Below are positions 5,494-42,864 of a stretch of 44,923 nt of DNA, in pieces. The translations under genes and the position numbers were made by a program. Under the pieces are notes generated by a model. It worked only from the letters and a program-made list of their open reading frames with translations, ran no database searches and was not told where the DNA came from. Position 1 is the first letter of the stretch. Every line of letters begins with the position of its first letter. Origin of the DNA: a virus. Location: the IMG/VR virus record IMGVR_UViG_3300042946_000505, positions 1 through 44,923 of that record. The stretch is one strand, 5' to 3'.

Positions 5494-6360
5494 CTAGTCG
5501 AGGGACGTCGGGGCGGTTCGCGGAGCCCCGATGATGTACGGATCAAGGTAGTGCCGTGCTGCAATCGCACTGCCCGGCGCGTGCCCTAGGTGAACGGCCC
5601 CTGCGCCGGGGCATCCCTTCTCGACGTCAGTTGCTGACGCACGCCGAATCCACTTCCAAGAGCCATTCCGCACGCCTGCCTTGGCGACGATCCGCTTGAA
5701 CTGGGAGCGGAAGGTTTCCGCCGACTTCGCCCACGGACAGATCATCTTGCGTGGGTGGGCCACTAGCGACTCGCGAAGCATCTCTACGGTGGCTGGCGTC
5801 AGCCTGCAGACGATGGCCCTGCCCGTCTTCGATTGCCCTAGAGCCATCACCCCGTCTGGCTGAACCTCGTCGCACCGCAGCCTGAGAATGTCCACAAGTC
5901 TCAGGCCTGTCTCCCAGGAGATCCGCACGGCGAGTGACCACCACACATTGCGAGGCACGTTGCCCTTGCGTGTCCGCTTAAGTTTGGAGGCCACTGCCAG
6001 TAACTGACGTACCTCCTCGACCGTCCACGCCCGTGGTGGCGTGTATGGCACTTTCGCGGGCCTGAGCCTGCGTGGTGGCTCCTGACACAGCCCCTTGTCT
6101 GCGGCTGCCCGCCACAGGGCCAGTAGGTGTCTCCTGCGGTTCGCAACCGTGTTCGGGGCCAGATGGCTCGACTGTATGTCTCGGAGCCAGCGGTTGAACA
6201 GGTCGGGTTCTAGTTCGTGAACCCCTACGGGCCGCTTGGCCCAATCGCTCACCGACTTGGCTGCGTACCGGTACTGACGAGCGGCCTCCTTCGTGAGCCC
6301 CCTCTCTAGGTCGTATGCCTCCACAAACTGAAAGACAGAACTGTCTGCTCGCCGGAACAT
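5494..6360 (-). CDS. int: Tyrosine recombinase / phage integrase
   Basis: 288 residues from the ATG at 6360, which has GGAGG eight bases upstream; an in-frame extension to 6420 lacks a ribosome binding site. The N-terminal core-binding domain spans about 1-100 (FVEAYDLERGLTKEAARQY). Catalytic candidates are Arg154 in ETGLRLVDIL, Lys178 in GQSKTGR, Arg240 in WIRRASAT (where the usual His is replaced), His260 in LGHAPGS and the nucleophile Tyr271 in ARHYLDPY. It would catalyse site-specific integration at the host tRNA-Arg site represented by the adjacent attP-like sequence. Confidence 0.93.
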   Translation of the reverse strand: MFRRADSSVFQFVEAYDLERGLTKEAARQYRYAAKSVSDWAKRPVGVHELEPDLFNRWLRDIQSSHLAPNTVANRRRHLLALWRAAADKGLCQEPPRRLRPAKVPYTPPRAWTVEEVRQLLAVASKLKRTRKGNVPRNVWWSLAVRISWETGLRLVDILRLRCDEVQPDGVMALGQSKTGRAIVCRLTPATVEMLRESLVAHPRKMICPWAKSAETFRSQFKRIVAKAGVRNGSWKWIRRASATDVEKGCPGAGAVHLGHAPGSAIAARHYLDPYIIGAPRTAPTSLD

Positions 6361-6727
6361 GGCACCATCCTCCGTCGCCCGCAAAGCGTGCTTGCTTTCG
6401 CGGCCTCGAGTGAAAGACAACGCAGCACATGCGTTGGTGTTTCACCCCACAACGGTGGCACTACCTTTTCTTCGATTGCGTAGATTCTCAATCGCTTAGA
6501 TGGGGGGTGCGCGCACCCACCATACGAGACTGCCGTTGCAATGCGGCAGACGCCCTGCGATCCTATTGGATACCTCGCGTAGAGCATCGGTCTACGGAAC
6601 CGAAGGTTACAGGTTCGAGCCCTGTGGGGTGTAGTTCGCTTCCTTGCGACTTCCATCGTAACGGTGGGAAACAAGGGGCGAAACCGCTTTCAAGCAGAAA
6701 GCGATCTACACAACCAAAGGGCAAAAC
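6361..6727. other. int-xre intergenic region with attP and inverted repeats
   Basis: A divergent 367-bp region without genes. It holds CGATTG/CAATCG inverted arms (about 6474-6498), a perfect GGGTGCGCGCACCC palindrome near 6506-6519 and the tRNA-Arg 3' half. These are suitable places for integrase arm sites and for the promoters of int and xre. I cannot define -35/-10 boxes with confidence. Confidence 0.6.
6579..6633 (+). other. attP: attP core: 3' half of tRNA-Arg(ACG)
   Basis: The sequence reads as a tRNA from the D-arm end (TAGAGC) onward. The anticodon stem is TCGGT (6587-6591)/ACCGA (6599-6603) with seven-base loop CTACGGA and anticodon ACG at 6594-6596. A five-base variable loop follows, then T-stem ACAGG (6609-6613)/CCTGT (6621-6625) with loop TTCGAGC, then GGGGTGT and A as acceptor strand and discriminator. 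The bases upstream do not pair with the acceptor strand, so this is not a working tRNA. Phages that integrate in tRNA genes carry exactly this 3' portion so that the host gene is restored. Confidence 0.85.
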
Positions 6728-8490: not shown

Positions 8491-8685
8491 TCATCGGGCC
8501 TTTTGGTCAACTTGCTCCTTCCGCTTCGCTTCCAGTGTTTCCACGCCATCAGCAGGACCGCTTTGAGCCACCATGAACGACCTTGCAGAAGCGACCGCAG
8601 CAGCGGCCCTTGCGGGCTCACTAGCAATCCGGCCTGGGTCAGCAGAAAGCCACACCAAGAACGAGACAAACCACCGAAAGATCAT
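8491..8685 (-). CDS. Small membrane protein (holin/lysis candidate)
   Basis: 64 residues from the ATG at 8685, six bases after the YeaQ-like gene's end. The N-terminus MIFRWFVSFLVWLSADPGR is a single membrane segment, followed by an Ala-rich helix and a charged C-terminus. A competing overlapping frame (8472-8669) is less protein-like. The small size, one transmembrane segment and neighbourhood of other membrane proteins fit a lysis role, but nothing proves it. Confidence 0.65.
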   Translation of the reverse strand: MIFRWFVSFLVWLSADPGRIASEPARAAAAVASARSFMVAQSGPADGVETLEAKRKEQVDQKAR

Positions 8686-8690
8686 TGCGA

Positions 8691-8942
8691 TCACTTCGAC
8701 ACCTCGTTGAGCTGCTTCCACACGAACATGCACAGGATCGCGCCAACAACCGACATCACGATTCCTGCTGGAGCGTAGTTCGATCCCGTGATGACCGATC
8801 CTACGATGCCTCCTGCGATGCTGCCTCCTATGCCGATTCCGATGGTTTCCATCGCTCGACGCTGTCGAGCCGGAGGCCACAGGGCATCGGTGATCGAGCC
8901 TGCGATCCAGCCGAATACGATCCACATAAGAAGCGTAATCAT
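8691..8942 (-). CDS. GlsB/YeaQ/YmgE-family membrane protein
   Basis: 83 residues from the ATG at 8942, set by GGAGGG seven bases upstream. Three hydrophobic segments: MITLLMWIVFGWIAG, a Gly-rich GIGIGGSIAGGIVGSVITG and a C-terminal GIVMSVVGAILCMFVW. This matches the transglycosylase-associated/YeaQ small membrane family. In a phage, a small multi-pass protein in this setting could act as a holin; that is inference. Confidence 0.8.
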   Translation of the reverse strand: MITLLMWIVFGWIAGSITDALWPPARQRRAMETIGIGIGGSIAGGIVGSVITGSNYAPAGIVMSVVGAILCMFVWKQLNEVSK

Positions 8943-9214
8943 CACCAACCCTCCCGGTGGCAGATCATAGAACCATCATTCGTGTCGCGACCCTTGTACT
9001 GCACCTCCGGTGCACAAGGTGCTGGCTCGGAGAATACCGTGACCCACAGGCCGATCTTCGCGATCCGCGACAAGAACCGCATGACAGGCCTGTCGTGCGC
9101 GGGCTTGAATGGGTTGAGCGGCTGGAAGCCAGGAGCGTTTGCTGCAAGGTAGCCCGCAATGAGGCAGGCAGCACAAATGGCAATGGCGGTTCGTTTGGGC
9201 ATGGCTTGGCTCAT
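8942..9214 (-). CDS. Small membrane-associated protein
   Basis: 90 residues; the start at 9214 overlaps the upstream stop (ATGA), and an internal ATG at 9202 is the alternative. The hydrophobic N-terminus (AIAICAACLIAGYLAA) and a second weak hydrophobic stretch (IAKIGLWVTVFSEP) suggest membrane association. It has four Cys residues, with a CHREGW end. Unknown; possibly a spanin-like or lysis accessory protein. Confidence 0.6.
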   Translation of the reverse strand: MSQAMPKRTAIAICAACLIAGYLAANAPGFQPLNPFKPAHDRPVMRFLSRIAKIGLWVTVFSEPAPCAPEVQYKGRDTNDGSMICHREGW

Positions 9215-10326
9215 AGGGCAATGAAGTGATTGACCGTCGCGTTCTTCTTGCTGACGTCCTTGGGCGCAGGAGTCATCCATTCGGCGTGCTCAAGGTCGCG
9301 ATACTTAAAACCATCAACGCCACCGATGGCAAAGGAATCGCCCTGCCTCAAAATAGATTCGATGTCGGCTCGCGAGCACCAGAAGCTCCCATCGGGTTGG
9401 TCAGAAGGCCACTTTGGGCCTGTGACCCAGGACCGGCCCCAAGAGTTGACGATGAGGCAGCCATCACGCTTGCCAGGGCCGTCTGCAAAGCGGGTCGCCA
9501 CCACGACCATGCAATGACCCCATTGGCCGCCCCTTGGGAGGAAGCCCATCGAGTCCCTGACGTTGGTGGCGGCGAATCCAACATTGCTGCAGATTGGCAC
9601 GCAATACCCGCAGCCTACGGCTGCGACCAACTCGTCCCATGTATCTACGAGGGCCACCGCAACAGCCCGATGCTTGTTGGCCTCGACTGCCAGTGCCTGC
9701 GGCACGCCGTATGCACCCCACTGCCTTGAGAGCGAGGTGCTGTAATGCGTCAGGTCGATGCCGCCGTAGTTGTCGCGATAGAGGATTCCGCCCTGGCCGT
9801 TCTTGAGGCCCGAGCACCATCTCGCTGCTGCTGCACCGTACGATCCATCTGACCACCCAGCGAAGGCGACGGGAGGCAGTCGTGCAGCAGTCCTGCTTCC
9901 GCCATAAATCGGCTCAGTCGCGACGAACTTGGGAGGGTGCGGCAGTTTGCCCTGCTTCCAATCGACGCACTGGGAGATCCAACTGCCCATGCCCCAGCCG
10001 AACGACACGCATGTTCCGACGCTGCCCTGGTTCCACACCTCGAAGGGCTTTGAGTACACGGCTCGAGAGGCCTCGTCAGCGTAACGCCACAAGAACGTAT
10101 CGACGGGCTTGATCTGATCCATGCACTCCTTGCCCGCCTGGGCGAAGCGAGGCTTATCCAACTCCGACAGGAACTCTGCCGTGCCAACTGGGTTGGGAAC
10201 GTAACCAAAGTTGCTCTCGACGTGGTCTGCTATGCGACTCACATATCGCGAAACAAGCGTGCCAAGAATGGCCGCAAAGGCCACGAACAGGACAGCAGAC
10301 CAAGTCCACCGATCACCTTGACGCAT
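9211..10326 (-). CDS. Membrane-anchored papain-family (C1) cysteine peptidase
   Basis: 371 residues from the ATG at 10326. An N-terminal transmembrane anchor (about residues 10-27, SAVLFVAFAAILGTLVS) precedes a C1A-like peptidase domain: oxyanion Gln100 and nucleophile Cys106 in NQGSVGTCVSFGW, His271 in GGQWGHCMVVV and Asn294 in LIVNSWG. The order Q-C-H-N is the complete papain tetrad. It would cleave peptide bonds, probably at the envelope. In this small-membrane-protein cluster it may aid lysis or modify the host surface. It overlaps the upstream gene by 14 bases. Confidence 0.87.
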   Translation of the reverse strand: MRQGDRWTWSAVLFVAFAAILGTLVSRYVSRIADHVESNFGYVPNPVGTAEFLSELDKPRFAQAGKECMDQIKPVDTFLWRYADEASRAVYSKPFEVWNQGSVGTCVSFGWGMGSWISQCVDWKQGKLPHPPKFVATEPIYGGSRTAARLPPVAFAGWSDGSYGAAAARWCSGLKNGQGGILYRDNYGGIDLTHYSTSLSRQWGAYGVPQALAVEANKHRAVAVALVDTWDELVAAVGCGYCVPICSNVGFAATNVRDSMGFLPRGGQWGHCMVVVATRFADGPGKRDGCLIVNSWGRSWVTGPKWPSDQPDGSFWCSRADIESILRQGDSFAIGGVDGFKYRDLEHAEWMTPAPKDVSKKNATVNHFIAL

Positions 10327-10864
10327 CGCTTGCAGCCCTCCCGACGTCACGGAAAGCGGATACCCATGCTGCACGCTGCTCTGACGTTAGTGGCCCACCG
10401 TCCTCGCCAACGTGCTGGTCGAAATATCCTGCAATGAGGTCGCGAGCGGCTGGCTGGCGATCTCCGATGGAGATGCCCCTGCACCGAAACTGCCTCGCGA
10501 CCTTCCGTAACTCATCTATGGCAATGCCCGTCTTGTAGAAGGGCTGTGTCTGCATTCCGTCCCACTCGATCTCGTCGGCCAGTTCCAAGCACATCGCCCC
10601 AATGACCGATGCGTCCTCACTTGCAGAGGGGCCTACGAAGGAGCCTTTCAGCGAAAGCGGCCCCGCGTCAGGTGCTGGAGTCGGCACTGGGGCCGATCCC
10701 TGGAAATGGGGCATCAGGGCGAACGCCAGGGCCACTAGGAGCAACGCTGCCGCCTTCTTGGCGTCTACCCTCTCCCTGACCCACTTGACCGCTTCTTTAG
10801 CCTTAGAGGCGTCAATGCCGATGAACAGCAAGGCAGCGGCAGCAAGCAGGGCAAGCGACAGCAT
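10313..10864 (-). CDS. Two-segment membrane protein
   Basis: 183 residues with GTAGGAG before the ATG. Hydrophobic segments at the N-terminus (LSLALLAAAALLFIGI) and around residues 38-52 (ALLLVALAFALM) are separated by a charged loop. A Pro-rich linker follows, then a helical periplasmic or cytoplasmic domain. It stands directly upstream of the membrane-anchored peptidase and may work with it. The family is not recognised. Confidence 0.75.
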   Translation of the reverse strand: MLSLALLAAAALLFIGIDASKAKEAVKWVRERVDAKKAAALLLVALAFALMPHFQGSAPVPTPAPDAGPLSLKGSFVGPSASEDASVIGAMCLELADEIEWDGMQTQPFYKTGIAIDELRKVARQFRCRGISIGDRQPAARDLIAGYFDQHVGEDGGPLTSEQRAAWVSAFRDVGRAASDASR

Positions 10865-35769: not shown

Positions 35770-36156
35770 ATGAGGCACATACGGCAATACAACGAGTTTG
35801 ACTGCGGGCTGGCGGTAGCGGCCATGATCTGCGGCAAGAAGTGGCAGGACGCGGCAGATGCCGATACGCATCCCACAAAGGCAGACGGCCTGACCACGAA
35901 AGAGTTTCTGGTGATGTGCAGCGCGCTTGGGTCGCGAATCGGCATGATCAAGGCAAGCGGCAAGATGCACCTCAAAAACGCCACGCCGCCTGATCGGTGC
36001 TGCGGCATGCTCATCCATCGCTTCGGCGCAAGGGTGGGCCACTATGTGGCCTTCGACGGCAAGTACGTCTATGACCCTGACTGCAAGCGTCGCGTTCGAT
36101 GGTCATCGTACCGCCGCCGCCCGTGGAAGATTTGCCGCTGGTTCGTGGCTTGCTAG
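35770..36156 (+). CDS. C39-like cysteine peptidase (lone plus-strand gene)
   Basis: 128 residues. The start at 35770 is chosen because AAGGAGG is nine bases upstream; an ATG at 35761 would be too close. RQYNEFDCGLAVAAMI carries the C39-family pattern with Gln6 and Cys12, and VGHYVAFDG with YDPDC supplies His91 and Asp103. C39-like domains cleave after double glycine in leader peptides or act as other papain-like hydrolases. The gene runs against its neighbours and is bounded by a hairpin, so it looks like a moron acquired separately. Confidence 0.83.
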   Translation: MRHIRQYNEFDCGLAVAAMICGKKWQDAADADTHPTKADGLTTKEFLVMCSALGSRIGMIKASGKMHLKNATPPDRCCGMLIHRFGARVGHYVAFDGKYVYDPDCKRRVRWSSYRRRPWKICRWFVAC

Positions 36157-41769: not shown

Positions 41770-42659
41770 TTCTTTACGCTCCTTGTGAATCGCCGCGAGT
41801 AAGCCGTTCTGGCCTCCTGCGACTTGTAGTGAACTTCGGACCCCTTCCACGAATACTTCACGCCTTGGGGGGTCAAACCGCCGGCGTGTGTTCCGATCCA
41901 CAACTTCAACTGACTCTCGATCTGCTCACGGCGTTCCGCGAGTTCATCGAGCCTGCTTCGCACCTCCTGCAACTCTGCGTCGAGATCATCTGCCTCTGGA
42001 GAGAGAGCGGTGACGTCTTCGATCTCGACCTTGGGGAACAACGCCTTCACCGTTTCCGCACTGTGCGGCCCGGCTGGCGGTGCTGTCTCTGTTTCGACCT
42101 TGTGCCAGAAGTCTCGCTCGATCTCGATGATGCGAGCCGCAATCTCTGGCGTCAGGTCACGCTCATAAGCCCTAAGGTTCTGGCCGCGATGCAACGCGAC
42201 GAGAACGCCACGGGTTGCCCCGGCGACGATCATTTCGTGCTGCAACTGAACCTCGTAGTGGACAGGCAGTTGCTCGGCCCATACATCGGCGTGGTATGAG
42301 GTGTTCTTGATTTGAACCACCACAAGCTCGCCGTCACGATCTTCCGTCGCGTCCAGTGTGGCACACATGAAGTGATGCTCTGGATGGCGACGAATGACGA
42401 ACGGTTCCGCGAGAGTGACGTTCCGCTTGAACTTGCGGCCGTACCACTCGCCAATCGTTCGCTCTAACACGATCCCTGCCTCTACGGCCTCGTTGTCAGA
42501 GAGGTCATCACCCTCCAACAGGCCCACCTTCTGCGACCAGACCGTCAGGGCATCTCGCCACGGATCTACTCCGCACACTGCCGGTGCATCGCTTCCGCCG
42601 ATACCCTTCTTTCGCTCTTCCAGCCACGCTGCCCGCTTGGCCGCATCAACGATGCTCAT
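41766..42659 (-). CDS. YqaJ-family exonuclease (viral recombinase)
   Basis: 297 residues with AAGGAG before the ATG. ERKKGIGGSDAPAVCGVDPW is the conserved opening. The catalytic core of the PD-(D/E)XK type includes MCATLDATEDRDGELVVVQI with KNTS and HYEVQLQHEMIVAG. A coiled coil (DDLDAELQEVRSRLDELAER) precedes the C-terminus. With RecT it makes a two-component recombination system like lambda exo/bet. Confidence 0.92.
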   Translation of the reverse strand: MSIVDAAKRAAWLEERKKGIGGSDAPAVCGVDPWRDALTVWSQKVGLLEGDDLSDNEAVEAGIVLERTIGEWYGRKFKRNVTLAEPFVIRRHPEHHFMCATLDATEDRDGELVVVQIKNTSYHADVWAEQLPVHYEVQLQHEMIVAGATRGVLVALHRGQNLRAYERDLTPEIAARIIEIERDFWHKVETETAPPAGPHSAETVKALFPKVEIEDVTALSPEADDLDAELQEVRSRLDELAERREQIESQLKLWIGTHAGGLTPQGVKYSWKGSEVHYKSQEARTAYSRRFTRSVKK

Positions 42660-42864
42660 CGCTGCTCCTTACTTGGTTGGTGTTATCCCGCCGGTAATCC
42701 CTCGCCGTGAGGTCATCCAGCAACTCCTCGCGGAAGACATCGAATCCGTGCGGGGCCTCAAACCCCAACTTCACTCGATTGCCGTCGATCCGCGTGACGG
42801 TCACTCTGATCAGGGCTCGCGGTATAACGACCGCTTCACCCTCCTTGCGCGTCAGCACAAGCAT
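42646..42864 (-). CDS. csrA: CsrA-family RNA-binding regulator
   Basis: 72 residues from the ATG at 42864, with AAAGGAG upstream; longer in-frame extensions have no such site. MLVLTRKEGEAVVIP at the N-terminus, VTRIDGNRVKLGFEAP in the middle and VFREEL at the end match CsrA closely. CsrA dimers bind GGA in hairpin loops or at ribosome binding sites. It is the first gene of the leftward recombination operon, so it could regulate phage or host mRNAs early. Confidence 0.93.
   Translation of the reverse strand: MLVLTRKEGEAVVIPRALIRVTVTRIDGNRVKLGFEAPHGFDVFREELLDDLTARDYRRDNTNQVRSSDEHR

Follow-up and report, generated by a model that had tools for sequence, protein, structure and literature searches.

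A membrane-anchored papain-like peptidase as a candidate lysis enzyme in phages of Planctomycetota

RESULTS

A peptidase cassette at the end of the late operon

The window, by which we mean the whole stretch of DNA that was analysed, is a 44,923-bp IMG/VR virus record with a 127-bp direct repeat at its ends. Gene calling based on codon usage, performed with a custom script instead of a standard program (here as well as in the distant loci and the maps of terminase kin discussed below), gave 65 genes. The late operon occupies the (-) strand and comprises a terminase, a lambda-type portal (Phage_portal_2), a capsid with a fused protease, head-tail and tail genes, a tape measure and a metallophosphoesterase; it ends in a cassette that contains a papain-like peptidase. 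The peptidase gene (9211-10326, (-) strand) encodes 371 aa, with a predicted membrane helix at about residues 9-37 and a catalytic domain of C1A fold at about residues 70-340, as delineated by an AlphaFold2 model and a fold search. Its start is overlapped by 14 nt by the 3' end of the gene for U2 (10313-10864, (-) strand), an anchored protein of 183 aa in which an N-terminal hydrophobic hairpin is followed by a proline-rich linker and a C-terminal helical bundle. Behind the peptidase, on the same (-) strand, lie small genes for membrane-associated proteins. The nearest (8942-9202) encodes an 86-aa protein with one N-terminal hydrophobic segment, which has blastp homologues in five of the seven compared records and no family match. 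It is followed by a YeaQ/Transgly_assoc-like protein of 83 aa with several hydrophobic segments (8691-8942), a candidate holin whose matches to Transgly_assoc (E 0.019) and NF007771 (E 1.5e-5) both fall below the cut-off, and by a 67-aa protein (8491-8694), likewise with homologues in five of the seven records, that has an N-terminal hydrophobic segment and a 'WLSADP...EPARAAAAV' motif. The latter is weakly similar to the N-terminal part of thioredoxin-like proteins found at the same place in distant loci.

An integrase (5494-6360) and, beside it, a tRNA-like stretch (6570-6633, (+) strand; 28.4 bits against an Rfam gathering score of 29, anticodon read by eye as ACG) suggest a temperate phage, with the tRNA-like stretch probably serving as the attachment site. 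Of 392 Planctomycetota genomes, 7 contain a 34-base part of this stretch with 1-3 mismatches, a pattern that is weak evidence for the host because tRNA genes are conserved. A CsrA-type regulator is encoded at 42646-42864 on the (-) strand (Pfam CsrA, gene assignment by eye), and CsrA is also present in the distant prophage set.

Fold and active site of the peptidase

The peptidase ORF is intact, giving 371 aa from its ATG, or 387 aa from a GTG located 48 nt upstream. A single N-terminal helix spans about residues 7-30 by hydropathy and residues 9-37 in the AlphaFold2 model. The sequence contains what we take to be the papain motifs, namely NQGSVGTC with Q100 and C106, WGHC with H271 and NSWG with N294; it is the fold and the conservation that were tested here. 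The model, built from 42 sequences, consists of a single long helix and a globular domain (pLDDT 85.0, pTM 0.80), and 204 PDB chains match it at E 1e-3 or better. The best match found with Foldseek and VIA-align is xylellain (3ois; Z 22.0, 2.9 A over 243 residues), followed by procathepsin B, Der p 1 and papain with Z 18-20, and Cwp84 with Z 17.6. The model thus indicates that the peptidase has the C1A papain fold with its L and R domains. Similarity to the C1A family (xylellain, cathepsin B, papain) covers the fold over residues 28-338 and the Q/C/H/N active site, but sequence identity is below 20%, Pfam Peptidase_C1 (PF00112) gives no match to the peptidase at either E 1e-3 or E 1, and the enzyme of the window differs further in its membrane anchor and phage cassette. 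Searches of Pfam, PHROGs, NCBIfam, PADLOC and PDB sequences returned no useful match; those to PDB sequences (antibody chains, E 0.018 and worse) are due to chance.

All four active-site residues, Q100, C106, H271 and N294, are retained in 80 of 80 sequences (the window, one MAG contig and 78 viral loci), the conservation of C and H being partly built in, since the IMG/VR search patterns preselect C or H and leave Q and N free. Two loci with an incomplete ORF (L075 and L085) were left out of this count and of later ones. Among 21 divergent sequences Q, C and H are each present in all 21 and N in 19, with Q in its place in L123 and L124. The dN/dS ratio lies at 0.085-0.155 for five pairs with the window, in which synonymous sites are near saturation, and at 0.09-0.14 for three other pairs; a fourth such pair is nearly identical, with almost no change. 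With these ratios and 150 relatives in IMG/VR, the ORF is well past anything chance would produce, and the peptidase looks like an active enzyme under selection. C246 and C272 also co-occur (14 of the 21 divergent sequences have both and 7 neither), a pattern that would fit a disulfide, but it essentially reflects one split in the tree and we do not propose one.

The initial annotation had described a complete C1-type peptidase with an N-terminal anchor beside small membrane proteins, and this description holds: the ORF is whole, the helix is predicted, the C1A fold and the Q/C/H/N set are there, and the neighbours are membrane proteins.

Relatives of the peptidase and their hosts

Relatives are plentiful in IMG/VR, where 163 stretches matched the search pattern and at least 150 encode a peptidase relative; the best 80 of these 150 were kept for the locus counts. 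Among 50,697 phage records there was no relative of the window's enzyme, of three divergent homologues or of U2, and a search of 72,556 plasmids with one divergent homologue gave no match. A single relative, on a Planctomycetota MAG contig, was found in 84,980 bacterial and archaeal species genomes by a scan that depends on exact short peptides and therefore detects close relatives only. Within Planctomycetota, the one phylum searched with profile-level sensitivity, the peptidase is present in 13 of 392 genomes according to a broader profile and in 12 according to the first profile. The carriers have mostly one copy, mostly beside phage genes, several copies being on contigs that are 0.9-7.8 Mb long. 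In the surroundings of eight such loci (Pfam, 99 genes, best 25 of 43 families), Phage_portal_2 occurs in four genes and Phage_portal in one, together with at least four capsid families (Phage_capsid_4, Phage_capsid, SU10_MCP and GP7) and several terminases. Judged by this distribution, the peptidase family is one of phages whose host group is poorly sampled, and wherever a host was seen it was a member of Planctomycetota.

Partners of the peptidase

The constant partner of the peptidase is U2, which lies directly upstream of it and overlaps it in 75 of 80 loci. The U2 model is all helical (pLDDT 86.9); its best fold match (Z 7.4) is within the range of unrelated helical bundles, so that no fold is assigned. 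Another small membrane protein, X5, is encoded slightly farther upstream; it is present in 60 of 80 loci, although many loci end early. When X5 is taken as the starting point, the peptidase follows at 0.9-2.2 kb in 65 of 80 X5 loci; in the other 15 the sequence breaks off within 0.3-1.9 kb of where X5 begins. X5 was not found in any frame of the window, which is of the kind that has the YeaQ-like protein only. When the 37 of 80 loci too short for the comparison are left out, 43 have enough flank, 23 of them with X5 only, 13 with both proteins, 7 with the YeaQ-like protein only and none with neither. Such a distribution would be expected if the two were small membrane proteins able to stand in for each other, like holins. 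The YeaQ-like protein, put forward earlier as the partner of the peptidase, remains a plausible one, but it is not universal, being present in 20 of the 43 evaluable loci.

In profile scans against known holin families, X5, the YeaQ-like protein and U2 had no match above chance; the best match to a PHROG holin (E 0.2) belongs to a neighbour in a distant locus. PADLOC likewise gave no family match for the cassette except for a chance-level one (0.021) to one 67-aa protein. The peptidase sits with membrane proteins that are holin-like by hydropathy and place only, in a module common to phages of the same hosts. Genes resembling DNA methyltransferases were seen by eye inside the cassette, behind X5, in two loci (L159, 5715-6635; L167, 4756-5907), and may explain the longer distances from X5 to the papain gene there.

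Distant loci in Planctomycetota genomes

In 12 distant loci the gene order is broadly kept, with small membrane proteins, an anchored or lipoprotein-like proline-rich protein, the peptidase and then usually a membrane or secreted protein. The exceptions are L123, whose upstream side is lost to the contig end, and L128, which is without a clear membrane protein behind the peptidase. The U2 profile is significant in L120, L121, L122, L124 and L125 (as well as in L008) and marginal in L128 and L130; in L123, L126, L127, L129 and L131 the U2-like partners were recognised by eye only. An N-terminal hydrophobic segment is missing from five of the 12 distant peptidases (L123, L124, L125, L128 and L130). 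The start is firm in four of the five, where the start codon lies in a 4-nt overlap with the gene before it. Soluble and anchored forms occur within one peptidase family, much as they do among endolysins. Phage lysis enzymes come in two forms, soluble ones, which need a hole, and anchored ones, which need none.

A thioredoxin-like protein is encoded downstream of the peptidase in six distant loci, assigned by Pfam in L120, L122 and L124, by close similarity in L121 and by motif in L125 and L126. In L120 (10610-11182), L121 (10661-11185), L122 (8215-8775) and L124 (8192-9028) it has an N-terminal hydrophobic segment, and its gene is the next, or almost the next, one after the papain gene. A protein of this kind could serve as a partner for an extracytoplasmic cysteine enzyme. 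Thioredoxin is not a general partner, as a [WFY]CxxC motif occurs in the downstream ORF of only 1 of 80 near loci, and the subfamily of the window does without it.

Other features of the distant loci are noted here in their own right. The gene after the peptidase in L124, L125, L127, L129 and L131 encodes a secreted or proline-rich protein with a CxxxxC cysteine pair near the C-terminus (e.g. CRGGRC, CEGGQC), the proteins being otherwise different. In L127 (10778-11701), L129 (8021-9124) and L131 (21-1133) a holin-like membrane part, a proline-rich linker and a C-terminal helical domain appear by eye to be fused into one protein directly upstream of the papain gene. No clear structural gene of a phage lies in the 10 kb or so around the chromosomal papain cassettes of L128 (9616-11356) and L130 (9564-12021); these cassettes could represent remnant prophages or a host-owned lysis system.

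Exchange of the cassette between unrelated phages

Three podovirus-like records (G002, G006 and G009) have structural genes that differ from those of the window, G006 having matches to P22/SU10-type portals. The only genes with blastp matches between the window and these records are the integrase gene, those of the cassette and one tail-adhesin-like gene. Nonetheless, the peptidases of the window and G002 are 76% identical and are sisters in the tree (FastTree support 0.989), whereas G422, whose terminase (TerL) is 71% identical to that of the window, has a peptidase with only 41% identity. The combination of gene content and tree indicates that the cassette is transferred as a whole between virion types, one with a lambda-type and the other with a P22/SU10-type portal. 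Such exchange among phages of one host kind is expected of lysis genes and not of head proteases.

We also looked at terminase kin of the window, where the peptidase is present in 1 of 32 records and Amidase_2 in 0 of 32 as well. The three kin maps inspected (G430, G442 and G452) end, or run out of phage genes, shortly behind the tail genes, and the fragment of G421, judged by where its terminase is, lies mostly upstream of them, so the absence of the peptidase from terminase kin says little.

Search for other wall hydrolases

It had been noted initially that no lysozyme, amidase or transglycosylase is recognisable in the genome, and Pfam bears this out: no endolysin family was found in any of the 65 called genes, searched as 10 proteins, 55 ORFs and the last 7 called genes. 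For the 55 ORFs the best 25 of 51 families were inspected, the other 26 being at E 7e-4 or worse. An alternative hydrolase was likewise not seen in 64 of the 75 genes of podovirus-like G006 (best 25 of 29 families). The carrier records were searched one by one for five families; Amidase_2 was found in 0 of 30, NLPC_P60 in 0 of 29, Phage_lysozyme in 0 of 30 and Peptidase_M15_4 in 0 of 30 records, and SLT above the cut-off in 0 of 29, with one sub-threshold match in G005 (E 0.0019, in-frame stop). Most of these records, for which completeness is not stated, may be fragments, so that each absence alone is weak and the missing endolysins are no proof.

The window does contain a further papain-like ORF (35770-36156, (+) strand), located beside the terminase on the strand opposite to the late genes, which matches Peptidase_C39 below the cut-off (E 0.0026). 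It could be a hidden hydrolase. Its relatives were found only in 4 of 328 loci searched (L212/L311 and L213/L301), which come from two records.

DISCUSSION

Based on these comparisons, we consider it likely that the peptidase is the lysis enzyme, equivalent to an endolysin, of a temperate Planctomycetota phage and that it works together with its cassette. This reading is favoured because of the host phylum, a cassette common to unrelated phages, the lack of a canonical endolysin in the carriers and the existence of both soluble and anchored forms. The suggestion of a lysis enzyme made at the outset is therefore well supported by comparison, while the function itself is something that we infer.

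Papain-superfamily domains are known to serve in phage endolysins, as CHAP, NlpC/P60 and the N4/N5 domains of mycobacteriophage LysA (PMC3314691 and PMC10318531). In comparison with papain-fold endolysins, which are of the CHAP, NlpC/P60 or C39-like kinds, the window's enzyme would be a full C1A-type, membrane-anchored protein in which no wall-binding domain was seen. SAR endolysins such as those of phages P1, 21 and N4 are lysozyme-type enzymes that are not known to be homologous to the papain enzyme. The likeness is in working only, since in them an N-terminal anchor holds a lysis enzyme outside the membrane, and the corresponding helix of the window is a predicted one. Holin-endolysin-spanin cassettes offer a parallel in layout, as they too are compact runs of small membrane proteins by one hydrolase that are exchanged between phages. 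However, the papain cassette has no holin or spanin family match in our scans, and its type of hydrolase was not found described for lysis.

The computation establishes which parts make up the cassette, the fold of the peptidase and the pattern across genomes; we infer the topology, late expression, triggering, the roles of U2 and the holin-like proteins, and the substrate as follows. A C1A papain-fold cysteine peptidase would be produced late and exported by its N-terminal helix, which would leave the catalytic domain outside the cytoplasmic membrane, tethered and restrained. A small multi-helix membrane protein, YeaQ-like here and X5 elsewhere, would act as a holin-like trigger, and U2, the tethered helical protein and constant partner, as a regulator or bridge that may restrain or position the enzyme. 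Depolarisation or perforation of the membrane would free or activate the enzyme, which would then cleave peptide bonds of the wall. The usual substrates of C1A peptidases are proteins, and we know of no member that cuts peptidoglycan. Cross-links or stem peptides of peptidoglycan seem somewhat more likely as the substrate than a wall protein.

The nature of the wall has a bearing on this issue. For the species tested, PMC4432640 describes Planctomycetota sacculi that survive boiling in SDS and are cut by lysozyme, and cells that contain diaminopimelic acid. Since planctomycete peptidoglycan is lysozyme-sensitive on this evidence, ordinary endolysins should work, which makes their absence more telling. 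The initial annotation had made the lysis role conditional on a host with a proteinaceous or otherwise unusual wall. The idea of a host with an unusual wall was a good one, as the relatives have Planctomycetota as their hosts, but a proteinaceous wall is unneeded and, for the species tested in PMC4432640, out of date. With peptidoglycan present, a protein wall is not required for the lysis reading, and peptidoglycan and protein are both possible substrates. It is tempting to go further and speculate that phages of the whole phylum lyse their hosts by proteolysis. The C1A protease would then destroy a load-bearing envelope protein or a protein-peptidoglycan link, instead of or along with peptidoglycan, and in the distant branch its thiol would be held ready by the extracytoplasmic thioredoxin of the cassette; we regard this as rather doubtful.

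The usual preference of C1A enzymes for proteins could also point to an accessory envelope protease, one that strips outer-layer proteins or cuts a receptor against superinfection, while another enzyme that escaped recognition, for instance the C39-like ORF or a portion of the 1174-aa tail protein, opens the peptidoglycan. Xylellain and the surface-layer protease Cwp84 are indeed among the fold matches, and the C39-like ORF is present in the window. Yet relatives of this ORF were found in only two records among the 328 loci searched, and blastp gave no homologue of the 1174-aa protein in any of the seven compared records, all of which have the papain cassette (they were chosen for the peptidase, not for U2). 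Together with the lack of another hydrolase in the inspected part of G006, this makes an accessory role appear unlikely.

Phage heads are matured by proteases, and in some loci the cassette is near structural genes, so virion maturation might be considered as well. However, a head protease/capsid protein is already encoded in the window (phrog_4523 'major head and protease', 1e-61), the papain enzyme carries a membrane helix, and it occurs with at least four capsid families at varying places relative to the head genes. A head protease is thus highly improbable. Only slightly less remote, in our estimate, is a toxic membrane protease belonging to a defence, abortive-infection or other prophage cargo (moron) module. 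The cassette is mobile and sporadic (13 of 392 genomes) and is surrounded by membrane proteins, and L128 and L130 are without clear phage genes nearby. Against this, PADLOC found no defence family apart from the chance-level match of the 67-aa protein, and the cassette resides in contigs of viruses with at least two kinds of virion and, in the window, at the end of the late operon.

We think that there is probably a lysis cassette, with a class of hydrolase not known in that role, across phages of one bacterial phylum. In the literature we found no paper on planctomycete phages, nor on such phages with a papain-type lysis enzyme, and no description of a full C1A-type endolysin; how phages leave Planctomycetota seems to be unstudied. 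A full C1A protease acting as an endolysin would, if true, be a new enzyme class for lysis. The papain cassette also provides a sequence marker for phages and prophages of Planctomycetota in metagenomes. Finally, the enzyme with which phages came to break the planctomycete cell would offer a test in the long argument over what holds that cell together.
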